A stretch of 64,000 nucleotides of DNA, taken from Bacillus sp. J37. GTDB lineage: Bacteria > Bacillota > Bacilli > Bacillales > Bacillaceae. Below are positions 49,988 to 64,000 of the stretch, piece after piece. The translations under genes were made by a program, and so were the position numbers. Positions within the stretch are counted from its first letter, which is position 1; every line of letters starts with the position of its first letter. Location: positions 1 to 64,000 of the forward strand of contig NZ_JAEK01000023.1 of assembly GCF_000518865.1 (NCBI RefSeq). Direction: 5' to 3'. The notes below the pieces were generated by a model, which saw nothing but the letters and a program-made list of their open reading frames with translations, ran no database searches and had not been told where the DNA came from.

Positions 49988-50974
49988 ATGAAGAATTGTT
50001 CGATCTTAATTCTCATATTCTTAATAGCGTTAGGACAAAGTGTACAAGCGAAGGATATCGAGCAACAGATGTATACATATCAACTCATGAAAAAAGATCT
50101 TCTTTCGATTGCAAAAGAGTATGACCTGGAAGTAAGAAGATTTGGTAAGTCAGAATTTGGACGAGATCTTCTTGCGGTGAAAATCGGTCATGGAGAGAAT
50201 AGCGTTTTTATTACAGGAAGTCATCACGGACGCGAATGGCTGTCAACACACATCATGATGGAAATGATCAAGCAATACGCGGAGGCTTATAAGCATTCCC
50301 GTCCATTTTCAGGGCATTCTCCTAAGATTTTAGATGATGTTGCGATTTGGTTTATCCCGATGGTGAATCCTGACGGTGTGACAATTCAACAAAATGGGGT
50401 TAGCTCATTTCCCTATCTATTTCAAGAGGTCTATATCGATATGAATGAAGGAAATACAGATTTTTCCCGTTGGAAAGCAAATGGTTTAGGAGTGGATTTA
50501 AATAGACAGTATCCAGCCGGATGGGACAATATTGAAGGAGATACGGCATATGCATCCTACTCACATTTTAAAGGGGATAAGCCTTTGGAATCAAAGGAAA
50601 CGAAAGCTTTAACACATTTTACAAAGCAAATAAAGCCTCTTACAGCTGCTGCCTATCATACCTCTGGCCGAGAGCTGTATTGGTATTATTTTAATTCTTT
50701 TCACCATCTTCAGCGTGACTACTCGCTTATTGAAAAAATCTCAGAGAAAACAGGCTATGAAATCTCCTATCCGCCCTTTGATGCTATAGGCGGGGGATAC
50801 ACTGACTGGTTTATTCAAGCATATGAACGACCGGCTGTAACGATTGAACTTAGTTATCTTGTTGAGGATACAAACCCTCCATTGTCAGTGTTTGTCGAGG
50901 AGTGGAAACGGAATAAAGAAATTGGATTTATTCTCTGTGAATATGCAAAGAAAGAGTTGCTGGTAGAAAAATAA
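49988..50974 (+). CDS. Secreted M14 zinc carboxypeptidase
   Basis: A 328-residue metallocarboxypeptidase with a signal peptide (about 1-21, ending VQA). Zinc ligands His80 and Glu83 (HHGREW), a third His in AAYHTSG, substrate Arg in DLNRQYP and catalytic Glu in TIELSYL are all present. Resembles peptidoglycan or gamma-D-glutamyl peptidases of bacilli. It stands between yhdB and a yhdC-like gene. Confidence 0.9.
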   Translation: MKNCSILILIFLIALGQSVQAKDIEQQMYTYQLMKKDLLSIAKEYDLEVRRFGKSEFGRDLLAVKIGHGENSVFITGSHHGREWLSTHIMMEMIKQYAEAYKHSRPFSGHSPKILDDVAIWFIPMVNPDGVTIQQNGVSSFPYLFQEVYIDMNEGNTDFSRWKANGLGVDLNRQYPAGWDNIEGDTAYASYSHFKGDKPLESKETKALTHFTKQIKPLTAAAYHTSGRELYWYYFNSFHHLQRDYSLIEKISEKTGYEISYPPFDAIGGGYTDWFIQAYERPAVTIELSYLVEDTNPPLSVFVEEWKRNKEIGFILCEYAKKELLVEK

Positions 50975-51049
50975 ATTATTTCTTTAGAGAATATGGACAA
51001 AATGTCGGGGCAGATTAATTGATAGAAAGCCGTAATGGAGGTCTGTCTT

Positions 51050-51394
51050 ATGAAAACATTATCAAAAGTTTTTTTTGTGTTCATTGCTCTCTCAATTATT
51101 TTTACTGCAGGATTAAAAGCTTACGGGGAACAAAATGTACAGGAAGTGGATTACAAAAAATGGAGCCGTATTGCTATATCTTCTGCAAAAGAAAAATATC
51201 CTGACGCTGAGTTTGTTGATTATAAGTATGATGGAAGAGAAGCTGTAAATGAAGAAGAGTCAAAAGATGTTTTCCATGTGAAGGGAAAACAAAACAATAA
51301 ACCGTTTATTGTAAAGGTTGATGTTGTATTTAACCCGAAAACAGGGCAATTGATTACCGTGAATGTTTCCGAAATGAGAGAAGGCAACCTGTGA
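51050..51394 (+). CDS. yhdC: Exported DUF3889 protein, YhdC-like
   Basis: A 114-residue protein with a signal peptide (about 1-26) and a soluble domain of DUF3889 type (AEFVDYKYDGREAV ... VDVVFNPKTGQL). Unknown function. ATG at 51050 follows TGGAGGT with good spacing. Confidence 0.8.
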   Translation: MKTLSKVFFVFIALSIIFTAGLKAYGEQNVQEVDYKKWSRIAISSAKEKYPDAEFVDYKYDGREAVNEEESKDVFHVKGKQNNKPFIVKVDVVFNPKTGQLITVNVSEMREGNL

Positions 51395-51410
51395 GGTCGC
51401 CTTTTTTCAT
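51381..51410 (+). terminator. Terminator after the DUF3889 gene
   Basis: AAGGC-AACC/GGTC-GCCTT stem containing the stop, then TTTTTT; it reads into the 3' end of nsrR on the other strand. Confidence 0.78.
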
Positions 51411-51844
51411 TTAGATAAAAAATAGGAGAGTAGAGCAGATTGATTCCTTGCTACGTCAGCTAAAGTATATTGATCAAGGACTTCCAAATATGCTTGTAAT
51501 GCTTTGTTTAATACATGTTTTAAGCCACATGCAGGAGAGATAATGCATTGATTGTTGTCTTGATCAAAACACTCCACAAGATGGAAATCTTCCTCAGTTT
51601 TGCGAACAATTTCTCCGATATTAATTTCCTCTGGAGGCATTGCTAACCGAATTCCGCCATTCCGCCCGCGGATTGTTTCGATGACATTCATTTTTCCGAG
51701 CTCATATGTGACCTTCATTAAATGGTTTTTTGAAATATTATAAACTTCTGCAATTTCTTTTATATTTGAAAGATCTTCTTTAGGTTTTGTAGCAAGATAT
51801 ACCAAGACTCTTAACGAGTAGTCTGTATAAAGGGTTAGTCGCAT
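51407..51844 (-). CDS. nsrR: Nitric-oxide-sensing repressor NsrR
   Basis: A 145-residue Rrf2-family regulator. The winged-helix N-terminus includes NISKNHLMKVTYELG; cluster ligands Cys92, Cys100 and Cys106 (ECFDQDNNQC, PACGLKH) hold an NO-sensitive [4Fe-4S]. It represses hmp, which lies divergently here. ATG at 51844 has GAGGT upstream; the upstream in-frame ATG is not supported. B. subtilis yhdE is the counterpart. Confidence 0.93.
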   Translation of the reverse strand: MRLTLYTDYSLRVLVYLATKPKEDLSNIKEIAEVYNISKNHLMKVTYELGKMNVIETIRGRNGGIRLAMPPEEINIGEIVRKTEEDFHLVECFDQDNNQCIISPACGLKHVLNKALQAYLEVLDQYTLADVARNQSALLSYFLSK

Positions 51845-51944
51845 AAAACATACCTCACATTTATTTTTAAAAAGATTTAGTCGGACTGAAATGGATTTTT
51901 TGGTCATGATATTACTTCATAATTAGTATAGCGTATGGTTGAAT

Positions 51945-51976
51945 GAAGCTCCAGGATGCTCGCTTCAATCAACCAA
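51945..51976 (-). repeat. Internally deleted GC-rich repeat
   Basis: On the minus strand: GGTTGATTGAAGCGAGCATC then CTGGAGCTTCA. The left end of the family (TGATTGAAGCG) joins the right end (GCGAGCATCCTGGAGCTTCA) at the shared GCG, losing about 90 bp. It lies between nsrR and hmp. Confidence 0.6.
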
Positions 51977-52085
51977 AACAGTTTTCTTAATAGAACCTAT
52001 GTTTAAAAGTAACTTTAGACCTATCTTACCATAGGGTGTGTACGTTATAGATATTATTGTAGGAAAATGTGACAGCTTTTTTAAA

Positions 52086-52152
52086 GATGTATTTTATATA
52101 TTGCTTTTAAATTATGGTTTATCTATGATAAAGATGTATTCAAAATACTTCT
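52086..52152. promoter_or_regulatory. NsrR-type operators upstream of hmp
   Basis: Site 1, GATGTATTTTATATATT (52086-52102), and site 2, AGATGTATT-CAA-AATACTTCT (52132-52152), a near-perfect dyad. Both resemble the ATGTATTTTAAATATAT-type NsrR box. Site 2 lies 17 bp before the hmp start. Confidence 0.6.
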
Positions 52153-52168
52153 TTAGGAGTTGGAATAG

Positions 52169-53395
52169 ATGTTATCTAATAAAACAATTGAAATTGTGAA
52201 ATCAACAGCACCAATCTTAGCTGAGCGTGGAGTGGAAATAACATCTTATTTTTACAAAAGCCTGTTTGAAGCACACCCTGCACTATTAAATATTTTTAAT
52301 CATGCAAATCAAAAACAAGGTCGTCAGCAAACTGCTTTAGCTAATACGGTTTATGCAGCAGCAACATATATTGATCAACTAGAAGTATTATTACCAGCGG
52401 TTAAACAAATAGCTCACAAGCATAGAAGTTTAAATGTAAAAAAAGAACATTATCCAATTGTAGGAGAATTCCTATTAAAAGCGATTAAAGATGTATTAGG
52501 AGATGCAGCAACACCTGACATTATTGAAGCTTGGGGAGAAGCATATGGAGTGATCGCCCAAGTCTTTATCGATGTTGAGGAAGAAATGTATAACAAAGCC
52601 AAGAATGAGGCTTGGGAAGAATTCAAGGCATTTAAGGTTGTTAAAAAGGAACAAGAAAGCTCTGTTATTACATCATTCTATCTTGAAGCTTCTGATGGTA
52701 AGCCAGTTCCAAATTTTCAAGCGGGTCAGTATATTACGATAAGATTATCTATTCCAGGTGAAGAGTATTTACTTAATCGTCAATACAGTCTTTCTGACTC
52801 TCCGGGGAAACAAACATTACGAATTTCCGTTAAGAAAGAAACAGGAGAAAACATAGATCAAAATGGTAAAGTATCAAACTATCTTCATGATTCAGTCAAT
52901 GTTGGTGATAAAGTAGAAATGACTGCTCCTGCAGGTGACTTTGTTCTAGATGGATCAGCAAATTCTCCGCTTTATCTCATTAGTGGTGGTGTCGGCATTA
53001 CACCGATGCTTAGTATGCTAAAAACAGTTCGAGATAACCAGCCAAGTCGAATGGTAACATTTATCCAGGCAGCAAATGATGGAAATGTACAAGCCTTTGG
53101 ACAAGAAGTTAGTGAAACGGTTCAATCAATGCCAAATGCAAAGAAATATGTCATCCTCCAACAGCCAACTGCATCTGACCGTGAGGAAAATAAATTTGAT
53201 TTTGAAGGATACTTAGATTTACAAAAGCTGGAACAACTTGTGAAAGAAAAGGATGCAACATTTTATGTATGTGGTCCAGCACCATTTATGGGAAGTGTAA
53301 TCGAAAACCTTCAAAGACTTGGTGTGAAATCAGAGAATATTAATTATGAATTTTTTGGTCCTGCAATTGATTTGAAGCAGTATCAGGAAGCGTAA
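52169..53395 (+). CDS. hmp: Flavohemoglobin / nitric oxide dioxygenase Hmp
   Basis: A 408-residue three-domain protein: globin (1-140) with proximal His85, distal Tyr29 and Gln53; FAD domain with RQYSLSDSP; NAD domain with SGGVGITPMLSML and VCGPAPFMG. It oxidises NO to nitrate using O2 and NADH. TAGGAG precedes the ATG. Regulated by NsrR from the adjacent gene. Confidence 0.96.
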   Translation: MLSNKTIEIVKSTAPILAERGVEITSYFYKSLFEAHPALLNIFNHANQKQGRQQTALANTVYAAATYIDQLEVLLPAVKQIAHKHRSLNVKKEHYPIVGEFLLKAIKDVLGDAATPDIIEAWGEAYGVIAQVFIDVEEEMYNKAKNEAWEEFKAFKVVKKEQESSVITSFYLEASDGKPVPNFQAGQYITIRLSIPGEEYLLNRQYSLSDSPGKQTLRISVKKETGENIDQNGKVSNYLHDSVNVGDKVEMTAPAGDFVLDGSANSPLYLISGGVGITPMLSMLKTVRDNQPSRMVTFIQAANDGNVQAFGQEVSETVQSMPNAKKYVILQQPTASDREENKFDFEGYLDLQKLEQLVKEKDATFYVCGPAPFMGSVIENLQRLGVKSENINYEFFGPAIDLKQYQEA

Positions 53396-53411
53396 AGTTA
53401 ATTTTGAAGCC

Positions 53412-53458
53412 AGCCACTCACTTAGGAATCGTATTCCTTACAGTAAGTGGTTTTTTTG
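53412..53458 (+). terminator. Terminator after hmp
   Basis: AGCCACTCACTTAGGAA... pairs imperfectly with ...TTCCTTACAGTAAGTGG, followed by TTTTTTT. Confidence 0.78.
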
Positions 53459-53562
53459 TATTTATAGGGCTTTATTGTTCAGAGTAATTTTTCCTTGGAA
53501 GGGTATAGATAAACTTATCAACTAGTATTATGCTTATATATTTGTAAAGTTAGGTGAGATAG

Positions 53563-53940
53563 ATGGAGAAAGACTTGGAACAAAAGCAAAAGACAATCGA
53601 TTCCAAATACATACAACAACACCTGGCAAATGAGCGAACATTTTTAGCTTGGATCCGAACGGCGATTGCGATTATTGGAGTGGGATTTCTCGTTTCAAAT
53701 TTACATGAAAATATGGAACCGAATCTTTCACAGACTAGTGATTATTTAGCCAATATTATTGGGATAACATCAGTTGGAGTAGGAATTTTAACGATCATTA
53801 TGGCAACCATTGCTTATTTACGAAAATATAAAGCAATTAACGACCAGACATTTAGAACCCCGAAAATAACCGTGATTACACTTGGGATTTTTGTGATCGT
53901 TATTGCGTTTATTTTTGGGATTTACTTTTTATTAATGTAG
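53563..53940 (+). CDS. DUF202/YidH-family membrane protein
   Basis: A 125-residue protein with three membrane helices and the DUF202 signature LANERTFLAWIRTAIAIIG. Function unknown across the family. AGGTGAG precedes the ATG. Confidence 0.88.
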   Translation: MEKDLEQKQKTIDSKYIQQHLANERTFLAWIRTAIAIIGVGFLVSNLHENMEPNLSQTSDYLANIIGITSVGVGILTIIMATIAYLRKYKAINDQTFRTPKITVITLGIFVIVIAFIFGIYFLLM

Positions 53941-53972
53941 AAGATACTAGCGTCTCCCCTTGAACAAGATTA

Positions 53973-54001
53973 GCATGTTTTTCAACTAAGGCTCATACAT
54001 T
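53973..54001 (+). promoter_or_regulatory. Sigma-E promoter of spoVR
   Basis: -35 GCATGTT (53973-53979), 14-bp spacer, -10 CATACATT (53994-54001), a full match to CATACANT. The start codon of spoVR is 30 bp downstream. Confidence 0.72.
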
Positions 54002-54030
54002 ATTGTAAGATTTGCTTTAGGGGGGAGACC

Positions 54031-55449
54031 ATGAAAGCAGCTGATCAAAAGGCTTTGGAATATGCTATTAGTGAAATAACCGAGGTTGCGAAAGGCTTCG
54101 GACTTGATTTTTATCCAATGAGATATGAGATATGTCCTGCTGATATTATTTATACATTTGGTGCATATGGTATGCCTACAAGGTTTTCACACTGGAGCTT
54201 TGGGAAACAATTTCACAAAATGAAGCTTCAATATGATTTAGGGTTGAGTAAAATTTATGAACTTGTCATTAACTCAGATCCTTGCTACGCATTTCTTTTG
54301 GATACAAACTCTTTAATCCAAAATAAATTAATCGTCGCTCACGTTTTGGCACATTGTGACTTTTTTAAAAATAATTCACGTTTTAGTAATACAAAACGTG
54401 AAATGGTTGAGAGTATGTCTGCCACAGCAGAGCGAATTAAGAAATATGAACTCATTCATGGAAGGCAAGAGGTAGAAACATTTTTAGATGCGGTTCTTTC
54501 CATACAGGAACATATTGATCCTTCCCTTGTTCGTCCAAAGCTTTCTTGGACGATTGATGATATTGAATTTGACGAGGATGCGGAAGAGCCGAAGGTTACT
54601 CCATATGATGACCTTTGGAATCTTGATAAAAAGGCTGAACCAAAGTCTACAATAAAAAAGAAGAAAAAAAAATTTCCGCCTTCACCAGAGAAAGATATTT
54701 TATTATTTATTGAAGAATACAGCCGGGAATTAGAGGATTGGCAACGTGATATTTTAACGATGATGAGAGAAGAAATGCTCTATTTCTGGCCTCAGCTTGA
54801 AACAAAAATCATGAATGAAGGATGGGCTTCATATTGGCACCAACGCATTATCAGGGAGCTTGATTTAACTTCTGATGAAGCTATAGAATTTGCGAAGCTT
54901 AATGCAGGTGTTGTACAGCCATCAAAAACAAGCATCAATCCATATTATTTAGGGCTGAAAATTTTTGAAGACATTGAAGAAAAATACGATAACCCGACAG
55001 AAGAAATGATAATGTTCGGTGCGCAACCCGGGTCAGGCCGTGAAAAAATGTTTGAAGTCCGTGAAGTGGAATCCGATATATCGTTTATCCGTAATTATTT
55101 AACAAAAGACCTTGTCATGCGTGAGGATATGTACTTATTCCAGAAGCAAGGCCGGGATTATAAAATTGTAGATAAAGGCTGGGAATCAGTTCGCGATCAG
55201 CTTGTCAGCATGAGGGTGAACGGCGGCTTCCCATATATTACGGTTAATGATGGGGACTATTTGAAAAATAATGAACTTTACTTAAAGCACTGGTTTGAAG
55301 ACATTGAGCTTGATCTAAAATACTTAGAGAAGGTGCTTCCATATATTTATCAATTATGGGGCAGACCTGTTCATATGGAAAGTATGCTGGAAGGAAAAAA
55401 TGTGTTATTTTCTTATGATGGGAAAAGTGTATCGAGAAGATATTTGTAA
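54031..55449 (+). CDS. spoVR: Stage V sporulation protein SpoVR
   Basis: A 472-residue SpoVR-family protein. Family segments [25 protein letters not shown] and RDYKIVDKG are present. In B. subtilis it is sigma-E dependent and affects spore cortex formation; the biochemical activity is unknown. GGGGGGAG precedes the ATG and a sigma-E-type promoter stands upstream. An unusual basic linker rich in Lys (about 210-220) is seen. Confidence 0.95.
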
Positions 55450-55451
55450 AA

Positions 55452-55482
55452 AAATCGCTGCTTAGGCAGTGATTTTTTTATT
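55452..55482 (+). terminator. Terminator after spoVR
   Basis: AATCGCTGC/GCAGTGATT stem with G-U pair, then TTTTT. Confidence 0.85.
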
Positions 55483-55535
55483 AGCATAAGGATATGCATG
55501 AATGTAGAAACTATATTTAGCTATTGAATGTATAA

Positions 55536-55559
55536 GTAAATTATTATATATTAATTTAC
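55536..55559. promoter_or_regulatory. Palindromic operator of the arsRBC operon
   Basis: A 24-bp near-perfect palindrome with arms GTAAATTA and TTAATTTAC, 23 bp before the arsR start. Likely ArsR operator overlapping the promoter. Confidence 0.6.
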
Positions 55560-55582
55560 GGATACAAGTGGAGGTGTAAGCA

Positions 55583-55927
55583 ATGTCAGAAACAACTCTT
55601 GAAATAGATAAAGCTGCGACAGTATTAAAACTATTAGGTGACAGAACACGTTTAACAATGGTGAAAATGTTGGATTCAAATGATTGTTGTGTGTGTGAGT
55701 TTGTTGAAATTTTTAAAGCAAGTCAACCAGCTATCAGTCAACATCTCAGAAAACTAAAAGATGCAGGAATTGTTCAAGAAACGAGAAGAGGGCAGTGGAT
55801 CATTTATTCATTAAACAAAAGCAGTGATTATTATCCATTTGTTCAAAACGTACTTGAACACCTTCCGAATCAGGATTATCGAATAAAAGAATTAGAAGAA
55901 CAAGGATTACGTATTTCGTGTGAATAA
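55583..55927 (+). CDS. arsR: Arsenic-responsive repressor ArsR (CVC type)
   Basis: A 114-residue ArsR/SmtB winged-helix repressor. The As(III) site is DCCVCEF with Cys35, Cys36 and Cys38 in the first recognition-helix region, the classical R773/pI258 arrangement. HTH is QPAISQHLRKLKDAG. It releases the palindrome at 55536 on binding As(III). Followed by arsB after 12 nt. GGAGGTG precedes the ATG. Confidence 0.94.
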   Translation: MSETTLEIDKAATVLKLLGDRTRLTMVKMLDSNDCCVCEFVEIFKASQPAISQHLRKLKDAGIVQETRRGQWIIYSLNKSSDYYPFVQNVLEHLPNQDYRIKELEEQGLRISCE

Positions 55928-55939
55928 TGGAGGGATGAA

Positions 55940-57238
55940 ATGACATCAGTAATTTTGGCATCAGTTATCTTTTTACTCACACTTACGCTCGTCATATGGC
56001 AACCAAAAGGGTTATCCATTGGCTGGTCTGCATGTGGCGGGGCGATTTTAGCCCTTCTTGTAGGTGTTGTTGATTTTAAAGATGTAATCGATGTAACGTC
56101 AATTGTTTGGAACGCAACCTTAGCATTTATTGCGATTATTATTATTTCTTTAATATTAGATGAAATAGGTTTCTTTGAGTGGTCAGCTTTACACATGGCA
56201 AGGGCTGCAAAAGGAAACGGCATGAAAATGTTTGTTTATGTCAGTTTATTAGGTGCAATTGTGGCTGCACTTTTTGCAAATGATGGAGCAGCACTAATCC
56301 TTACACCGATTGTCCTTGCGATGGTAAGAAACTTAAACTTTAATGAAAAGATGGTGTTTCCATTTATTATGGCTAGTGGATTTATTGCAGATACAACCTC
56401 ACTTCCATTAGTCGTTAGTAATTTAGTGAATATCGTATCAGCAGACTTTTTCGGGATAGGATTTGTCGAGTTTGCATCAAGAATGATTATTCCTAACTTT
56501 TTCTCACTAGGTGCAAGTATTTTGGTTTTATTTCTCTTTTTCCGTAAAAGCATCCCGAGAAATTATGATATATCCCAATTGAAAAAACCAGTAGAAGCCA
56601 TTCGTGATAAAAAGATGTTTAAATTGTCCTGGGCTGTATTGGGAATCTTACTTGTTGGATACTTTGCAAGTGAGTTCATCGGCATCCCTGTATCGTTCAT
56701 TGCCGGTATTGTTGCCATCTTCTTTTTAATCATGGCAAAAAGAAGTCCTGTTGTTAACACAAAAACCGTCATTAAAGGGGCACCTTGGGCAATTGTCTTT
56801 TTCTCAATCGGAATGTATGTCGTTGTTTACAGCTTACGAAACGTTGGTTTAACAAATGTATTAGCCGATTTAATTCAAGTAACAGCAGACCAAGGGTTGT
56901 TTTCAGCGACAGTTGGAATGGGTTTTATTGCGGCAATCTTATCGTCAATCATGAACAACATGCCTACTGTTATGATTGATGCACTTGCCATTTCGGATAC
57001 AAATACTACAGGTGTAATAAGAGAAGCTCTTATCTATGCTAATGTAATTGGTTCCGATTTAGGACCGAAAATTACACCAATCGGCTCTTTAGCCACTTTA
57101 TTATGGCTTCATGTCTTATCTTTAAAAGGTGTGAAAATCTCTTGGGGAACCTATTTTAAAACAGGAATTATCCTAACCATTCCAACATTGTTTATTACCC
57201 TTGTTGGTTTATATATTTGGTTACTTATCATCCATTAA
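55940..57238 (+). CDS. arsB: Arsenite efflux pump ArsB
   Basis: A 432-residue membrane permease with about 12 helices. [16 protein letters not shown] near 114 and [13 protein letters not shown] near 340 are conserved in ArsB. It expels As(III) and Sb(III) by ion exchange. GGAGGGATG lies upstream of the ATG. Middle gene of arsRBC. Confidence 0.94.
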
Positions 57239-57263
57239 TCTTATTTTAAAAGGAGAAATGAAC

Positions 57264-57683
57264 ATGTCTAAAAAAACAATCTACTTCTTATGTACAGGAA
57301 ATTCTTGCAGAAGCCAAATGGCAGAAGGATGGGCAAAAAAACATTTAGGTGATGAGTGGGAAGTAAAAAGTGCCGGACTAGAAGCACATGGTTTAAATCC
57401 AAATGCAGTGAAAGCAATGAAAGAAGCGGGTATCGATATTTCAAATCAAACATCTGATGTAATTGATCCGGAAATTTTAAATCATGCTGATTTAGTTGTA
57501 ACACTTTGTGGTCATGCGGCAGACAATTGCCCAGTTACTCCTCCACATACTAAACGAGTACACTGGGGGTTTGATGATCCGGCGAAAGCAGAAGGAACTG
57601 ATGAAGAAAAATGGGCATTCTTTGGGCGTGTACGTGATGAAATCGGAGAAAGAATTGAACGTTTCGCAAAAACGGGAGAATAA
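57264..57683 (+). CDS. arsC: Thioredoxin-coupled arsenate reductase ArsC
   Basis: A 139-residue low-molecular-weight phosphatase-like reductase. P-loop CTGNSCRS (Cys10) and the redox pair Cys82 and Cys89 (LCGHAADNC) are in the exact positions of the pI258-type enzyme. It reduces arsenate to arsenite for export by ArsB. ATG at 57264 has GGAG 8 nt upstream; an earlier in-frame ATG is too close to that site. Confidence 0.95.
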
Positions 57684-57687
57684 TAAA

Positions 57688-57713
57688 AAGCCGTGGGACA
57701 TCCCGCGGCTTTG
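57688..57713. terminator. Bidirectional terminator between the two ars operons
   Basis: AAGCCGTGGGA/TCCCGCGGCTT stem between convergent arsC and arsI-like genes. Confidence 0.85.
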
Positions 57714-57730
57714 CCTTTACCAATACATAT

Positions 57731-58129
57731 TCATTCATCACAACAAGTATCGATGGTGTCTACTTCAGTGTCTTCTTTTGTTAAGAAAAATTCCCATTCA
57801 TGACCATCAGGATCTGTGATCCAAAACTTATCTTGCTTAGCATAGCAACATGTAGTATCACTTTCATTACGAGAGAAAAAACCTTCCGTTTCCAGCCTCT
57901 CTTTATGTTTTACCAACTCATTAGTACTGAATACTTGAAAACCAAAATGGTTGATATGATTACCCTCTACACGATCTACCGGTCGTAATGTAAAGTTTAA
58001 CCCCGGGTTCTCTAACAAAAACTTCACATAATCTGGTTTTACCTTTACAGGTTTTACACCAAATAACTTAGAGTAAAAGATAAGGGAAGTCTCTAAATTT
58101 GTTACATTTAAACCAATATGGATGTTCAT
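57731..58129 (-). CDS. arsI: ArsI/CadI-type VOC dioxygenase (C-As lyase-like)
   Basis: A 132-residue vicinal-oxygen-chelate protein. Candidate iron ligands are His4, His61 and Glu113. The vicinal pair Cys94-Cys95 (TTCCYAKQDKF) is the substrate-binding mark of ArsI, which cleaves the carbon-arsenic bond of trivalent methyl- or aromatic arsenicals. A second CC pair (129-130) closes the protein. ATG at 58129 follows AGGAGGAAAGG. Last gene of the second ars operon. Cadmium-induced CadI is the other name for this family. Confidence 0.85.
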   Translation of the reverse strand: MNIHIGLNVTNLETSLIFYSKLFGVKPVKVKPDYVKFLLENPGLNFTLRPVDRVEGNHINHFGFQVFSTNELVKHKERLETEGFFSRNESDTTCCYAKQDKFWITDPDGHEWEFFLTKEDTEVDTIDTCCDE

Positions 58130-58175
58130 ATTTCCTTTCCTCCTAAGGGTCGATTTCGTCATTAATTCTACGTTA

Positions 58176-58331
58176 TTAACAACAAACTGTTTGACAACAG
58201 GTTATTTCAATTGATTTCGTTTCAACGGTGCGCTTATCCTTTTGGGTTAAAGGTATTGAAAAAAGACTTAATTCGGTCATTTCATTTTGTTTTATTTTTG
58301 AAAGCATATAAACCTCATAATCATTAAACAT
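58176..58331 (-). CDS. 51-residue small protein with CC...CC tail, ars operon
   Basis: A strong AGGAGG stands 7 nt before the ATG. The product starts MFNDYEVYMLSKIKQNEM, is polar with a TELSLFSIPL segment and ends EITCCQTVCC: two vicinal cysteine pairs four residues apart at the extreme C-terminus. It lies between arsR2 and the arsI-like gene, same strand, 46 nt before the latter. I know no named family. Cys pairs suit soft metal or As(III) binding, so a chaperone, buffer or accessory to ArsI is possible; this is inference. Confidence 0.7.
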   Translation of the reverse strand: MFNDYEVYMLSKIKQNEMTELSLFSIPLTQKDKRTVETKSIEITCCQTVCC

Positions 58332-58366
58332 AACTTCCTCCTAAAACAAATTTATTTGATTTATTA

Positions 58367-58382
58367 ATCGAAAAAAATTGAT
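58367..58382. promoter_or_regulatory. ArsR-type palindrome, inner copy
   Basis: ATCGA-N6-TTGAT, 36 bp upstream of the 51-residue protein gene, with TATAAT-like sequence beside it. A variant of the outer sites at 58744 and 58801. Confidence 0.45.
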
Positions 58383-58401
58383 ATAATACAGAAAAAATTT
58401 A

Positions 58402-58725
58402 TCAGCAAGTTGGCCGAAATAGACAACAAAGCTCTGCTGATAATAGGTGATTTACTTCATCGAGGTTAAGTTTGTAATAATTCCATGTACCTCTTGTTTC
58501 TCTTATAATAAGGTTGGCATCTAAAAGTATTTTTAAATGATATGACAACTTTGATTGTGTCATATTTACCATTGGAGCTAGATCATTTACATTAATTTCA
58601 CCTTTCTGTGTTAGAAGGTTCATGATCTGCAATCTTTTTTTGTCCGCAATGGCTTTAAACTTACTCTCATACATTTCAAAGGTTTTTTCTAAAGACACAT
58701 CTTGGAAGTTGATTTCCTGTTTCAT
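58402..58725 (-). CDS. Arsenic-responsive repressor ArsR (C-terminal CCx5C type)
   Basis: A 107-residue ArsR/SmtB protein. HTH region MTQSKLSYHLKILLDANL. The sensor cysteines are at the C-terminus: Cys100, Cys101 and Cys107 (CCLFRPTC), the CCx5C spacing of the Acidithiobacillus-type ArsR, not the CVC type of the first repressor. ATG at 58725 has AAAGGTG upstream. It likely controls itself, the small peptide and the ArsI-like gene. Confidence 0.88.
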   Translation of the reverse strand: MKQEINFQDVSLEKTFEMYESKFKAIADKKRLQIMNLLTQKGEINVNDLAPMVNMTQSKLSYHLKILLDANLIIRETRGTWNYYKLNLDEVNHLLSAELCCLFRPTC

Positions 58726-58743
58726 GAGATACACCTTTTCTAT

Positions 58744-58815
58744 ATCAATTTTTTTTGATATTTAAACTATATATCCAAATTTTTCTTTTGTCAACTATTA
58801 ATCAAAAAAATTGAT
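58744..58815. promoter_or_regulatory. Two ArsR-type palindromes upstream of arsR2
   Basis: ATCAA-N6-TTGAT at 58744-58759 and ATCAA-N5-TTGAT at 58801-58815, flanking the promoter region of arsR2. Confidence 0.6.
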
Positions 58816-58919
58816 GTAAATGGATTTTTTAATATGTATATAATGTAAAAGATATCTGAGTTTTTTATCACAACTGTTTTTGCATAGATCGTTGCTATAA
58901 ATTATTATGTAATGATAGA

Positions 58920-59047
58920 TAGTGGAATGGAGCGGAAGACACTTGACTCCTGCGGGATGTGAGGAAAGGCTGAGACCCCACAGGCGAAGCCGAGGCTCAG
59001 CTTCCTCCCCGGCGAATCTTGTGGCTGGAGCGCAATGGAACGAATCG
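58920..59047 (+). repeat. GC-rich intergenic repeat, full copy of the GTGGAATGGAGCGG type
   Basis: Starts AGTGGAATGGAGCGGAAGAC and ends TGGAGCGCAATGGAACGAAT; the middle has GACTCCTGCGGGATGTG, TGAGACCCCACAGGCG and GAGGCTCAGCTTCC. It shares the middle with the 5228/30773/44933 set but has different ends. Confidence 0.72.
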
Positions 59048-59115
59048 GTTTTTATATTCAACTATTTAAATTACAACATAGAAACCTTTATTTTAGATAA
59101 AAAGTGTGAAGTAAC

Positions 59116-59151
59116 AAAAGAAGCTACCAGATTAGGTAACTTCTTTTTGTT
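59116..59151 (-). terminator. Terminator after chrA
   Basis: AAAAGAAG-CTACC/GGTAA-CTTCTTTT stem with T residues on the minus strand. Confidence 0.8.
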
Positions 59152-59156
59152 CGACA

Positions 59157-60341
59157 TTAAATCAATCCAATAAGTAAACCTCCAACAGCCCCGGTCAACA
59201 CAATGATCCATGGAGGAAGCTTCCAGTAAACTAACATACTGAATAATACGGCAGCAAAGGCAAAGTCAATTGGTGCCAGTATACTGCTGGTCCAAATAGG
59301 ATGATAAAACGCAGAGATTAAGATCCCGACAACCGCTGCATTTACTCCAAGTAACGCGCCCTTAATCTTAGGATTACGGCGCAAAGTATCCCAAAATGGC
59401 AATGTTCCTAAAATTAATAGAAATGCGGGTAAGAAAATAGCAACTGTTGCTACTAATCCACCTTGCCAACCATTTATAACGGCACCTAAATAGGCTGCAA
59501 ATGTGAAAAGTGGGCCGGGAACTGCTTGTGCTGCTCCATAACCGGCTAAGAAGGCTTCTTCAGACAGCCACCCGGTTGGAACAAATTCACGTTCCAATAA
59601 AGGCAAGACGACATGCCCTCCGCCAAATACTAATGATCCTGAGCGGTAAAAGCTATCAAACATTGCAATCCAACTTATCGAAGTCATTTCTCTTAAGATT
59701 GGTAGTAGAATGAGTAACCCGAAAAATAATGATAAGCAAACAATGGCAAATCCTTTTGAAATAGGAAACTCAACTCTTGATTCTTCAGATTCTGCGTGAT
59801 CTTTATATAAGAGAAATCCAACGAATGCGGCGATGATAATCACACCGACTTGTGTAAAGGCTGTTTGCCATAAAAGTGTTCCTACTAAGGCAAATAAAGC
59901 AATTGTTTTCCTCTTTAAATCTGGAGTTAATTTTTGTGCCATTCCTAGGATTGCATGGGCAACCACGGCAACGGCGACTATTTTCAGGCCGTGAATCCAT
60001 CCGGCATCAGCGACATCAAAGCCCTGAAGAATTAAAGCAAAGATAATAAGTGCAAAAACCGAGGGAAGGGTAAAGCCTATAAAGGAAGTGATTCCTCCCA
60101 ATACTCCCGCACGCATGACACCAATCCCAATCCCTACCTGGCTACTGGCCGGCCCGGGTAGAAACTGGCAAAGTGCTACTAGATCCGCATAGCTTTTTTC
60201 ATCCATCCATTTCCTTCGTCGAATATATTCTTCATGGAAATAACCTAAGTGTGCAATGGGTCCACCAAATGATGTAAAACCGAGTCTTGTTGAAACAATT
60301 AGTATTTCAAGCAACGTCTTTAGTGTATTTTTTTGTTCCAT
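59157..60341 (-). CDS. chrA: Chromate transporter ChrA (long form)
   Basis: A 394-residue membrane protein with two homologous CHR halves. First half: GFTSFGGPIAHLGYFHEEY and LCQFLPGPASSQ; second half: SGSLVFGGGHVVLPLLE and AQAVPGPLFTFAAYLG. It exports chromate. AGGCAGGT lies before the ATG. Preceded by a padR gene at 19 nt, so the two form an operon. Confidence 0.93.
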   Translation of the reverse strand: MEQKNTLKTLLEILIVSTRLGFTSFGGPIAHLGYFHEEYIRRRKWMDEKSYADLVALCQFLPGPASSQVGIGIGVMRAGVLGGITSFIGFTLPSVFALIIFALILQGFDVADAGWIHGLKIVAVAVVAHAILGMAQKLTPDLKRKTIALFALVGTLLWQTAFTQVGVIIIAAFVGFLLYKDHAESEESRVEFPISKGFAIVCLSLFFGLLILLPILREMTSISWIAMFDSFYRSGSLVFGGGHVVLPLLEREFVPTGWLSEEAFLAGYGAAQAVPGPLFTFAAYLGAVINGWQGGLVATVAIFLPAFLLILGTLPFWDTLRRNPKIKGALLGVNAAVVGILISAFYHPIWTSSILAPIDFAFAAVLFSMLVYWKLPPWIIVLTGAVGGLLIGLI

Positions 60342-60360
60342 TATTATTTACCTGCCTTTC

Positions 60361-60669
60361 CTAGTCTATTATTTCTTTGAATAACTCATATGCTTTTGCC
60401 CGAGCTTCATTTAGAACCATGTTCCCTTTTTCTGTAGTTGTATAATATTTTCGTATTTTTCCTTCTACATTTCGGTCTTCTCTTATTAAGAGACCATCTG
60501 ACTCCATGGTGTGAAGGATAGGATAAAGGGTGCCGGGACTGATATTATACCCATGTTCTCTGAGTTCTTCTAGCATCCAGATACCAAAAATTGGATGTTC
60601 ATTTGCATGGTGAAGGATGTGAATGTGAATAAAACCGAGAAACAATTTCCGCAGGACTTTGTCTTCCAA
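60361..60669 (-). CDS. PadR-family repressor
   Basis: A 102-residue PadR winged-helix regulator (ISPGTLYPILHTMESDGLL). Single-domain class. TTG start with GAGGTGA upstream. It probably represses itself and chrA; the effector may be chromate. PadR-ChrA pairs are known in Firmicutes. Confidence 0.88.
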   Translation of the reverse strand: MEDKVLRKLFLGFIHIHILHHANEHPIFGIWMLEELREHGYNISPGTLYPILHTMESDGLLIREDRNVEGKIRKYYTTTEKGNMVLNEARAKAYELFKEIID

Positions 60670-60693
60670 TAAATCACCTCATTAATTTATGTT

Positions 60694-60724
60694 GATATCG
60701 AACTTCAATATTGGGTTCCGATAT
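60694..60724. promoter_or_regulatory. Possible PadR operator
   Basis: GATATCGAAC and GTTCCGATAT form an inverted repeat 25 bp upstream of the padR start. Confidence 0.45.
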
Positions 60725-60930
60725 TAGGTATTGTAACATCTTCATCTAATTTTTCCACTCATACCTACAATATTTACAAAACCTTTACATTTCTAAGAAA
60801 TTAATAAAGTTGATATGATTTTTGCATACTTTCTGCAAAGTCATTTGTTATGTTAGAAATATAGAGACCTATAAATAAGAAAATATAGGGAATTACTTTA
60901 ACAACTAAAATAAGAAAAAGGAGTAGTAAA

Positions 60931-61515
60931 ATGAAAAAAATCCACCTAATTATTTTGACAAGTTTATTAGCCATTTTATTAGCTGCATGTACTAGTAATA
61001 ATGAGGAAACAACTGAAAATAATGAGGATACAAATACAAATACGGCAAAACATTCTGAAATGGATCATTCTGAGATGAACCATTCAAGTTCTGGTGAGGT
61101 TCCGGTAGGTTTAAAGGAAGCAGAAAACCCAACATATAAAGTGGGGAGCCAGGCTATCCTTGAAACAGATCATATGGAGGGTATGAAGGGAGCAGAAGCA
61201 ACAATTGCTGGGGCTTATGATACAGAAGTTTATGCTGTTTCTTATACACCAACAACAGGCGGAGATATAGTTGAAAATCATAAGTGGATCATTCATGAGG
61301 AAATCGAAGATGCAGGGAATACACCATTTAAGCCAGGTGAAGAAGTTGTTTTAAATGCTGATCATATGGAAGGTATGAATGGTGCAGAAGCTGTAATTGA
61401 CTCTGTTGAAGAGACGACTGTGTATATGGTTGATTACATACCTGCAACGGGTGGAGAAGAAGTGAAAAACCATAAATGGGTAACAGAAAGTGAATTATCA
61501 CCAATAGAAGAGTAA
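60931..61515 (+). CDS. ydhK: YdhK-like lipoprotein with two DUF1541 repeats
   Basis: A 194-residue lipoprotein (lipobox LLAAC, Cys20). A His/Met-rich linker (HSEMDHSEMNHSS) is followed by two copies of a repeat with DHMEGMKGAEATI/DHMEGMNGAEAVI and NHKWI/NHKWV. The His and Met content suggests binding of copper or another metal outside the cell. AAAGGAG precedes the ATG. Convergent with the two-component system. Confidence 0.88.
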   Translation: MKKIHLIILTSLLAILLAACTSNNEETTENNEDTNTNTAKHSEMDHSEMNHSSSGEVPVGLKEAENPTYKVGSQAILETDHMEGMKGAEATIAGAYDTEVYAVSYTPTTGGDIVENHKWIIHEEIEDAGNTPFKPGEEVVLNADHMEGMNGAEAVIDSVEETTVYMVDYIPATGGEEVKNHKWVTESELSPIEE

Positions 61516-61528
61516 GTATGAAGGAAAA

Positions 61529-61556
61529 GAGAACTTGGGATAACCCGAGTTCTCTG
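61529..61556. terminator. Bidirectional terminator
   Basis: GAGAACTTGGG/CCCGAGTTCTC stem with one G-U pair between convergent genes. Confidence 0.8.
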
Positions 61557-61571
61557 TTCAATATCGTTTAT

Positions 61572-62261
61572 TTATTTGTCGGAAACCCATTTATAACCTA
61601 TTCCCCAAACTGTTTTTAAATATTGTTCTACAGGGAAGTTTGCTTTACGCAGCTTTTCTCTCATATTCCGTATATGTGAGTCAATGGTTCGATCCTCTGT
61701 TTCAGCCTTTAGGCCCCATAAAGTTGAAAGTAAATGTTCTCTTGAAAATACTTTATTTTGGTTTTCTAAGAACAACCCGAGTAAGCCGTATTCCTTAGGT
61801 GTCAGAACAAGTTCTTTCTCTTGATATGTTACCTGATATGTGGACTGATTTAGTAATAACCCTTCAAAATAAATTATGTTTTCAGAGTGAGAAGTTCTGC
61901 TTGTTCTTCTCATAATGGCTTCTAAACGAGCGATTAACTCGTCTTCATGAAATGGTTTGATCAGGTAATCGTCAGCACCTTTTTTTAAGCCTTTTACAAT
62001 ATCTTCCTTTTCGCTTCTGGCTGTTAACATGATTATTGGTACATCAGATATTTTTCTTATTTTTTCACAGGTTTTCCATCCATCCAATTCAGGCATCATA
62101 ATATCAAGGATTACAAGGTCAATGCTTTTGTGATACAGAATTTCTAAGCCCTCATTACCAGATCTCTTTTTAATACAGGTATATCCATAAGGTTCTATAT
62201 ATAAAGATAATAAATCGAGCATTCTTTGCTCATCATCTATCAGCAAAACGGTTTTCATCAT
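61572..62261 (-). CDS. OmpR-family response regulator
   Basis: A 229-residue regulator: receiver with LIDDEQR, phospho-Asp53 (LVILDIMMPELDG) and Lys in YLIKPFHED; winged-helix output ending RDxTIDSHIRNMREKLRK-like. Its start overlaps the kinase end by 29 nt (kinase first), so the two are coupled. A start at 62258 is also possible. Target genes are unknown; metal-stress neighbours make a metal response plausible. Confidence 0.92.
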   Translation of the reverse strand: MMKTVLLIDDEQRMLDLLSLYIEPYGYTCIKKRSGNEGLEILYHKSIDLVILDIMMPELDGWKTCEKIRKISDVPIIMLTARSEKEDIVKGLKKGADDYLIKPFHEDELIARLEAIMRRTSRTSHSENIIYFEGLLLNQSTYQVTYQEKELVLTPKEYGLLGLFLENQNKVFSREHLLSTLWGLKAETEDRTIDSHIRNMREKLRKANFPVEQYLKTVWGIGYKWVSDK

Positions 62262-63624
62262 ACAGCCCCTTTAACGTAATTTTAAAGCATGTTCCCTTAT
62301 TCACTTGACTTTCTACCGAAATAGTTCCACCATGGGCATCAATTATTTCTTTCACTATTGATAATCCTAACCCATAACCTCCTGTTAACCTTGAGCGTGA
62401 TTTATCTACTCGATATAGGCGGTCAAAGATATATGGTAAATCTTCAGCAGGTATTCCTGGACCTTGGTCTCTGACATAAATATCTATTATCTCTTCTTCC
62501 TTTTTTATTTCAATTGCAGTCAATGAATTGGTATCAGAGTATTTTAGTGCGTTATCCAACAAATTTAAGAAGACTTGTTCAAATCGAATAGGATCGATAT
62601 ATGCAAAAGTTTCTTTTTGACAAATAAACTCAAGTTTTACTCCTTTGTTTTCAAAAGCCGGTTTCATTTTTTGAAAAATGGATTGTATGAATAAGCAGAT
62701 GTTAACTTTGTCCTTTGAAATAGAAAAAGTATGTTGATCCATTTTAGCTAAATCAAATAGTTCTGTTAGAAGATCACTCACATGGTTTGATTCTTCATAA
62801 ATAATATGTATGTAATGAAGTCTGTCCGTTTCTGATATGTTGTTTCTTTTTGCGATATCTGCATAACCCTTAATATAGGTAAGAGGGGTACGTAGTTCAT
62901 GAGAAATACTTCCTAAAAATTCATTTCTTTCTTTTTTTAAATAGTTTAAGTCGTTAGCTAAAATATGAATGGAAGTTGATAACTCTCCTATTTCATCATT
63001 TGAAGTTTTAGGCAGGGAAACTGAAAAATCCCCCTTGCTTATTCTTCTTGTGGCTTCCTTCATTAAAATCAAAGGTTTAGTTAGAGCGTTTGATAAGAAG
63101 AATATGGTAAACAGCATGAGAAAGATAATGAGAACTGAAGCAAGGATAAAATGTTCATTTAATCGTGATATAACATGTTGTATTTGGTCGGTACTTTTGA
63201 ACATATAAACAAACCCAACCTCTCCATTACGAGCCTGGAATGAAGAAACCGTCGAAATATATCGTTCATGTTGCCAGTCAGGTTGAATGAGAAGACCATT
63301 TTTAGATTCTTCAAGTTTTGTTTTTAGGATTTTGTTCATTTCTTTGTCTATTGTTTTAGATGAAGTAATGACTTTTCCAACGTCATTTGTTATAACCACC
63401 TCAGTATCTGTTTGTGACTCCATTATTTTAATGTGATGTAATGTTGCCTCATCATAAGAAATTTCAATAACATCACGATGGCTGTTTCCTCGTAATTTTA
63501 GGGCGTTTAACTCTTCATTAACAAGAGAATGGACAACATTACGATGTAAGAAAAACATAGAAGATGCTTCAATGATAAAAATGCAGATAAAAAACCATAG
63601 ACCGAGTTTAATAGAAATTTTCAT
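62233..63624 (-). CDS. Sensor histidine kinase (HAMP, HisKA, HATPase)
   Basis: A 463-residue membrane kinase. Helix 1 is near 8-27, an external sensor loop of about 130 residues follows, helix 2 is near 160-180, then HAMP (ALTKPLILMKEATRRISKGD), phospho-His in SISHELRTPLTYIKGYA and ATPase GGYGLGLSIVKEI. ATG at 63624 has GAAGGTG upstream; an in-frame extension up to 63747 lacks a ribosome site. Partner of the downstream regulator. Confidence 0.92.
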   Translation of the reverse strand: MKISIKLGLWFFICIFIIEASSMFFLHRNVVHSLVNEELNALKLRGNSHRDVIEISYDEATLHHIKIMESQTDTEVVITNDVGKVITSSKTIDKEMNKILKTKLEESKNGLLIQPDWQHERYISTVSSFQARNGEVGFVYMFKSTDQIQHVISRLNEHFILASVLIIFLMLFTIFFLSNALTKPLILMKEATRRISKGDFSVSLPKTSNDEIGELSTSIHILANDLNYLKKERNEFLGSISHELRTPLTYIKGYADIAKRNNISETDRLHYIHIIYEESNHVSDLLTELFDLAKMDQHTFSISKDKVNICLFIQSIFQKMKPAFENKGVKLEFICQKETFAYIDPIRFEQVFLNLLDNALKYSDTNSLTAIEIKKEEEIIDIYVRDQGPGIPAEDLPYIFDRLYRVDKSRSRLTGGYGLGLSIVKEIIDAHGGTISVESQVNKGTCFKITLKGLYDENRFADR

Positions 63625-63689
63625 AGGATACACCTTCTTAATTTTTATATGAATATTGTAAAGGTAAATTGTTGAGAAAATATGCAGAA

Positions 63690-63724
63690 ATAAAAGAGCA
63701 AAGCTAATCACGCTCTGCTCTTTG
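63690..63724 (-). terminator. Terminator of the DUF326 gene
   Basis: AAAGAGCA/TGCTCTTT stem followed by TTTTATTT on the minus strand. Confidence 0.78.
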
Positions 63725-63760
63725 ACTATAACCCTTAGATTCTCCAATTTCTAGTGCTGC

Positions 63761-64000
63761 TTATGAAACCATTTGTCGACATGCTTCAGCACATTTAAAG
63801 CAAGAATCGGCACAGTTTTTGCAATGGTCATGTTCATGTTTCTGACACTCTTGACCACATGCCTCACAAATATCGGCACATAGCTTACAAATTTGTTCAG
63901 CAAAAGGACTATTCGATTGCATAGCTTTTACTGCAAAACCGCAAATATCGGCACACTCCCTGTCCAGACGGATACAGTTTGACATCATAGTTACATCATC
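63761..64000 (-). CDS. DUF326 four-helix copper-binding-type protein, 5' end cut off
   Basis: The reading frame stays open to the right edge of the window, so the N-terminus is missing. The visible part has CxxxC pairs (CADIC, CKLCADIC, CKNCADSCFKC) and HEHDHC, the pattern of DUF326 proteins related to copper-storing four-helix bundles. The missing 35-40 residues should hold further cysteines. It suits the metal-resistance context. Confidence 0.85.
   Translation of the reverse strand, partial: DDVTMMSNCIRLDRECADICGFAVKAMQSNSPFAEQICKLCADICEACGQECQKHEHDHCKNCADSCFKCAEACRQMVS

Follow-up and report, generated by a model that had tools for sequence, protein, structure and literature searches.

A small cysteine-tailed gene recurs in arsenic operons of Bacilli and may encode an arsenical-binding helper

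The window analyzed here is a 64,000-nt stretch of DNA from Bacillus sp. J37 (contig NZ_JAEK01000023.1, positions 1 to 64,000). On its minus strand lies a compact operon in the order arsR, 70 nt, peptide ORF, 46 nt, arsI. The features of the locus are as follows.

58801..58815, no strand assigned: ATCAA-N5-TTGAT palindrome beyond the promoter as seen from arsR, by sequence reading (spacing N6 in the relative L003)
58766..58794, minus strand: sigma-70-like arsR promoter, TTGACA-17-TATAGT, matching 11/12 consensus positions (a consensus match only)
58744..58759, no strand assigned: perfect copy of the ATCAA-N6-TTGAT palindrome, lying between arsR and its promoter
58402-58725, minus strand: arsR, 107 aa from its own ATG, with a C-terminal CCx5C (tail ELCCLFRPTC)
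58345-58360 and 58367-58382, no strand assigned: tandem pair of ATCAA-N6-TTGAT palindromes in the gap between arsR and the peptide gene, each with 1 mismatch
58337-58342, minus strand: ribosome-binding site (AGGAGG) serving the peptide gene, 5 nt 5' of its ATG, by sequence reading
58331->58176, minus strand: gene for the 51-aa cysteine-tailed peptide, 51 codons, tail CCQTVCC; product MFNDYEVYMLSKIKQNEMTELSLFSIPLTQKDKRTVETKSIEITCCQTVCC
57731-58129, minus strand: arsI, encoding an ArsI/CadI VOC C-As lyase of 132 aa from an ATG behind its own AGGAGG, ending DTCCDE
55583..57683, plus strand: convergent arsR-arsB-arsC operon for inorganic arsenic resistance, separate from the peptide operon

A sequence-only reading had placed a small gene with an AGGAGG site between ArsR and ArsI and had pointed to CC pairs near the C-terminus of all three products; coordinates, sequences and the tails listed above bear out both statements. 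ArsI scored 157.7 bits against NCBIfam NF041414 (cut-off 116) and matched PDB entries 5d4f and 5c4p at E ~2e-25 in alignments that span the CCYA pair (vicinal CC present); 5c4p is the T. curvata ArsI, according to the Figure 4 legend of PMC12607644. The C-terminal CCx5C of ArsR has the same spacing as that of AfArsR type 2, whose As(III) site is given in a passage of PMC11868830 as Cys95, Cys96 and Cys102. The genome of the window encodes one ArsI above cut-off and one ArsP_1 at another place, and no ArsM above cut-off was found in it. Any MAs(III) that this organism meets would therefore be made by others.

The peptide gene was compared with that of the closest relative found, Metabacillus niabensis (L003), in which the three-gene order is the same and the peptide is 84% identical. 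The two genes differ at 9 of 28 synonymous and 9 of 125 non-synonymous sites, giving a dN/dS of 0.18 (binomial p 0.0024 for the synonymous excess). For the same pair, dN/dS was 0.09 for arsI and 0.02 for arsR. Pooled over six groups of relatives, pN/pS was 0.20 in the group g64 and 0.22, 0.49, 0.50, 0.53 and 0.56 in the others. By these measures the peptide gene is constrained, yet several groups of relatives evolve fast. In g64, and in that group only, pN was lower in the N-terminal 28 residues (0.055) than in the middle (0.164), which suggests a docking site. Comparison with relatives thus confirmed the 51-residue ORF as a real, conserved coding gene. Loss of the reading frame in relatives had been named as one finding that would refute the early claim; the proposed search of relatives for short ORFs with a CC tail close to arsI was likewise positive.

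Neobacillus cucumis (L004) has a 63-aa member of the same kind, which follows a similar ArsR, starts with MFNDYEVY like the window peptide and ends CDCVCCC. We searched first with this protein and afterwards with a 20-member alignment. Within the order, 44 of 397 genomes, from 24 of 136 genera, gave matches at E<=0.01. Among the 29 listed matches outside the training set, a held-out table from which G085 was excluded as a near copy of training members, 14 had a CC-tailed ArsR on their own strand <=800 nt upstream; the remaining 15 had no CC-tailed ArsR that near among those listed. Since the profile search is blind to position, the linkage to ArsR in these 14 is independent support.

On these comparisons the peptide is a member of an unnamed, fast-changing family, mostly of 50-75 aa, whose cysteines sit almost exclusively in the C-terminal tail. 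In 39 aligned members, the last 14 positions contribute 124 cysteines among 546 residues and the rest of the chain 1 among 1712, and 37 members have CC within the last 14 residues; many rows had been selected partly for their cysteine tail, whereas absence of cysteine elsewhere was never a selection criterion. The number of tail cysteines varies (two in 19, three in 7 and four in 24 of 50 tails). The N-terminal segment follows a loose YExxxxxKxxExExxAxxAWK pattern. In the window member, which is short for the family, this segment reads MFNDYEVYMLSKIKQNEM; the start MFNDYEVY is common to L004 and the AWK motif is absent. The window, L003, L004 and the tabulated loci all have the combination by which we define the family, a CC or CxC tail beside a CC-tailed ArsR or beside arsI, arsP or arsM. 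Because the N-terminus is strongly divergent, some CC-tailed ORFs, such as those at L103, L108 and L116, may be analogues instead of homologues. The hydrophobic moment of residues 4-27 was only mildly raised (mean z 0.85; positive in 32 of 39 members, negative in the window member), so we do not claim an amphipathic helix.

Several variants of the gene occur. At L047 (1086-1671), one arsR is followed by three tandem, diverged copies of the cysteine-tailed gene. On a Cytobacillus pseudoceanisediminis plasmid (L196:4380-4559), a frame change has removed the cysteine tail, and the L195 copy is intact. Proteins with a similar N-terminal segment and no ars neighbor in the flank examined occur at L050, L051, L052, L023, L046, L183, L185, L189 and L192, some of them without a cysteine tail. 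Segments of this type away from ars genes may mark a small-protein module of broader occurrence in Bacilli.

To place the gene in its operons, we took a census at ArsR loci. Relatives of the window ArsR (E<=1e-15) were found in 190 of the 397 genomes of the order, and the census covered 121 loci that are part of those matches (30 from the search output itself, a further 80 selected from the list and 11 reached through the peptide search). All but one of these ArsR proteins (120/121) have CC in their last 30 residues. We looked, <=700 nt after arsR, for ORFs encoding 35-90 aa that have a ribosome site and whose final 12 residues include >=2 Cys. Such an ORF was present at 52 of 121 loci; four (L115, L147, L148 and L153) proved to be mere in-frame ArsI tails and were dropped, leaving 48/121. 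Without the 11 loci reached through the peptide search, the count was 37/110. Controls gave far fewer: 2/121 on the opposite strand and 28/2420 in dinucleotide shuffles. By hand count, the 48 loci spread over 15 family labels.

The neighbors of the 48 ORFs were ArsP_1 in 28 cases, ArsI in 12, a VNHGG-type small protein alone in 4 and none of these in 4; the flanks examined were unequal, ~1.5 to 2.6 kb, so these counts are lower bounds. The ArsP_1 family (PF03773) is broad, and the single putative arsenical permease scanned reached no NCBIfam cut-off. The gene orders seen were arsR-peptide-arsP-DCC (the last gene is described below), arsR-peptide-arsI and arsR-arsI-peptide. At the other 73 of 121 loci, many arsR-arsI operons among them, the cysteine-tailed ORF was absent, which indicates that the peptide is dispensable for ArsI. 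The earlier suggestion of a small gene dedicated to arsenic operons is supported, but not its tie to ArsI alone: ArsP_1 is the more frequent neighbor, and ArsM occurs in some other orders.

The palindrome of the arsR promoter region recurs immediately 5' of the peptide gene. In the 5.3-Mb genome of the window, the tandem pattern (<=2 mismatches) occurs in one place, 58345-58382. Across loci, a palindrome lies <=100 nt after the arsR stop at 89 of 123, compared with 39 of 732 control windows, and the spacer is 6 nt long in 135 of 145 matches. A palindrome upstream of arsR was found at 35 of the 43 loci having sufficient flank. Where the cysteine-tailed ORF starts <=200 nt from arsR, 34 of 37 loci have a palindrome, in 27 cases in at least two copies. 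Of the 73 loci lacking the ORF, 42 also have the palindrome after arsR, so it is a general mark of whatever gene follows arsR. The tandem palindromes at 58345-58382 are likely the ArsR operator, an assignment from position alone. A weak terminator-like site, 58417-58402, lies at the arsR end, 5' of the peptide gene. Promoter-like sites in 57650-58900 numbered 4, no excess over the shuffle mean of 6.2, and no Rfam family reached its gathering score over 50000-64000.

The sequence-only reading had added that a dedicated arsenical-binding peptide would be new. The window peptide matched 0 families in Pfam and NCBIfam. For 39 members there were only weak single-member matches, 19 in Pfam (best E 0.0073) and 5 in NCBIfam (best E 0.0034), and no family member reached a curated Pfam or NCBIfam cut-off wherever one was given. 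Three of four members had no match in PHROGs, and the fourth, from L004, gave E 0.044. A PDB sequence search with the family alignment A3 returned two matches, at E 1.4 or worse. A convincing match is thus absent from Pfam, NCBIfam and PHROGs; with a length below usual cut-offs as well, the gene is easily missed, as had been anticipated. In listings from the open-access literature (5.39 million papers, a set outside which most subscription papers lie), we recognized no such peptide and found no metallochaperone for methylarsenite.

The nearest parallel among known systems is ArsD, described in passages of PMC12607644 and PMC4562236 as a metallochaperone for inorganic arsenite, with its As(III) site at Cys12-13-18 (PMC4562236). 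Like ArsD, the peptide is a small ars-operon protein with vicinal cysteines and, as proposed below, a hand-off role, and its tail CCQTVCC resembles the CC-x4-C site of ArsD (CCPTGVC in the L195 ArsD). Homology was not detected, however: hhalign of A3 against the L195 ArsD gave probability 1.4% and E 0.037 over 9 columns. The L195 ArsD has 117 aa and an N-terminal site, whereas the family has nearly all its cysteines in the last 14 residues. ArsD works with ArsA, and the window operon has neither arsD nor arsA. Bacterial metallothioneins are also small and thiol-rich and would buffer soft metals. Their cysteines are distributed along the chain, unlike those of the family, and no metallothionein was among the Pfam families listed for the 39 members. 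The operon partners, ArsI and the AfArsR-type ArsR, have CC pairs of their own and belong to known families; the peptide matches neither.

Another small protein of the same operons, unnamed and here labeled DCC, is short, with an IKEV-like core and several CC pairs. Its gene follows ArsP_1 or precedes ArsI (L017:2584-2724, L195:3136-3300 on the minus strand, L083, L125 and others), and the one member scanned had no convincing Pfam or NCBIfam match. It is similar to the peptide in being small, unnamed, rich in CC pairs and next to ArsP_1 or ArsI. Its CC pairs run along the whole chain, in contrast to the peptide, and the one member compared showed no likeness beyond CC.

Beyond the order, 26 of 398 genomes in a class-wide sample matched the family at E<=0.01. 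Members outside the order with a CC-tailed ArsR, ArsI or ArsP were found at L171, L173, L175, L177, L182 and L184; L184 has just one tail cysteine. At L172, L180 and L194, an ArsM gene follows the peptide gene on the same strand (360-372 bits; NCBIfam cut-off 263), and L178 has an ArsO-like gene that falls below its cut-off (284 versus 425 bits). At least two tail cysteines were present in 35 of 37 distinct family matches with an ars neighbor and in 11 of 20 without (Fisher p 6e-4), a contrast weakened by the fact that the profile contains the tail columns. That 11 of 20 matches without an ars neighbor in their flanks are still tailed means that other soft metals are possible ligands. A phylum-wide sample (398 genomes, E<=0.001) yielded three matches, two from the order of the window and a third that we rejected as partial, inside a 247-aa frame; matches of this kind give no good evidence outside class Bacilli. 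CC-pair MarR-like regulators, possibly arsenical sensors, lie near the ArsM or ArsO-like and cysteine-tailed genes at L172 (2443-2901, minus strand), L180 (1739-2206, minus strand) and L178 (2-349, plus strand).

In mobile elements, plasmid tblastn found no match with the window peptide and two Cytobacillus plasmids with the L004 member, where the products are annotated 'hypothetical protein'. Phage records searched with the window ArsR gave none. Two weak matches of the L004 member in viral contigs, one antisense to and one within a longer ORF, were put down to chance, as was a second site in the genome of the window (C75, E 0.17), antisense to a longer ORF.

Coding constraint and linkage to arsenic genes are both read from sequence; from the cysteine tails and the neighbors we infer a small arsenical-binding helper, probably under ArsR control, whose dithiol tail would buffer trivalent (organo)arsenicals or pass them to ArsI, ArsP or ArsM. 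We give this reading a probability of roughly 0.5. As(III) or a trivalent organoarsenical would free ArsR from DNA, so that peptide and ArsI would be co-produced. The flexible C-terminal dithiol (CC..CC) would take the arsenical by thiol exchange, while the conserved N-terminal segment might dock to a partner or to the membrane. The arsenical could then be handed to the CC pair of the partner, which here would be the CCYA pair or the CC tail of ArsI, and elsewhere ArsP or ArsM. Alternatively, the peptide may merely keep the arsenical sequestered.

A passage of PMC11868830 states that MAs(III) requires two cysteines and that three are used in the ArsR sites known to respond to As(III); two to four tail cysteines would thus suit both. 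MAs(III) is broken by ArsI, exported by characterized ArsP members and made by ArsM, according to passages of PMC12607644 and PMC11868830, so the neighbors ArsI, ArsP_1 and ArsM point to organoarsenicals more than to inorganic arsenite. A bolder form of the idea, tentative and somewhat doubtful in our judgment, is that the ArsR-controlled family acts across class Bacilli as an organoarsenical chaperone, carrying MAs(III) between the CC pairs of ArsM, ArsI and ArsP_1 with a tail of two to four cysteines tuned to the operon. If confirmed, the family would supply a missing step in organoarsenical resistance. A passage of a 2025 review (PMC12607644) has arsP so far undetected in Bacillus arsenic operons, a point on which the ArsP_1-family permease gene near the cysteine-tailed gene at 28 of 48 loci of the order bears. 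The family is also an example of a short gene missing from the family libraries searched.

The peptide might instead be a passive thiol sink that, like a metallothionein, buffers inorganic As(III) or other soft metals and has neither a partner protein nor a hand-off step. The three or four cysteines of 31 of 50 tails are sufficient for As(III), the shifting operon position and the triplicated gene at L047 suit a dosage-type buffer, and tailed members exist without ars neighbors. Yet the 19 tails with just two cysteines would be poor for As(III), and the slower N-terminal segment in g64 suggests docking. We regard a sink of this kind as rather unlikely.

A small regulatory protein that tunes ArsR, as an anti-repressor or feedback sensor, and handles no arsenical for enzymes would fit the 37 of 48 loci at which the ORF starts <=200 nt from arsR, 34 of them with a palindrome between. 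It would also fit the choice of ArsR: the ORF follows 31 of 46 ArsR proteins with a third C-terminal cysteine (CCx5-6C) and 17 of 75 without, although the association is possibly phylogenetic, as the counts ignore relatedness. However, the ORF starts later at 11 of 48 loci, often behind arsI, and members at L178, L180 and L194 adjoin genes for ArsM or an ArsO-like protein, and the flanks examined there contain no CC-tailed ArsR. Regulation of this kind seems improbable.

Less credible still is a leader peptide, in which translation of the cysteine codons would gate arsI, arsP or other genes by attenuation and the product would be irrelevant. The ORF is short, ends in cysteine codons, lies 5' of an enzyme or permease gene and has the weak terminator-like site immediately 5', at the arsR end. 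But the 101 nt around the 46-nt peptide-arsI gap fold like shuffles (z -0.59) and contain no terminator-like site, and an attenuator there is not supported. Moreover, the peptide gene sometimes comes after arsI or last of the labeled genes, and amino-acid constraint extends to the N-terminus of products 50-75 aa long. A spurious ORF inside an intergenic gap is scarcely conceivable: its length under usual cut-offs and the lack of a convincing database family are outweighed by the low dN/dS, the frame and tail preserved across genera, the 48 of 121 loci against 28 of 2420 shuffles, and the 'hypothetical protein' annotation of relatives in RefSeq plasmids.

Other small genes and repeats were noted nearby. 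An unnamed VNHGG-type protein (MxVNHGGxLxKEYF...) recurrently adjoins the cysteine-tailed gene (L005:1942-2145, L006:1687-1884, L009:1703-1918, L022:1740-1952); the one member scanned did not reach family cut-offs. In the window, a GC-richer repeat at 58915-59060, between arsR and a chromate transporter gene, has no Rfam match and 43 matches in the same genome, itself counted. At 59157-60669 (minus strand) lie the chromate efflux transporter, above cut-off for TIGR00937, and an Rv3488-type regulator, below cut-off; the transporter places the arsenic genes within a metal-resistance neighborhood. A 75-aa cysteine-rich protein at 63761-63988 (minus strand) matches the C-terminal half of a Csp1-type copper storage profile, below cut-off (45 versus 100 bits).
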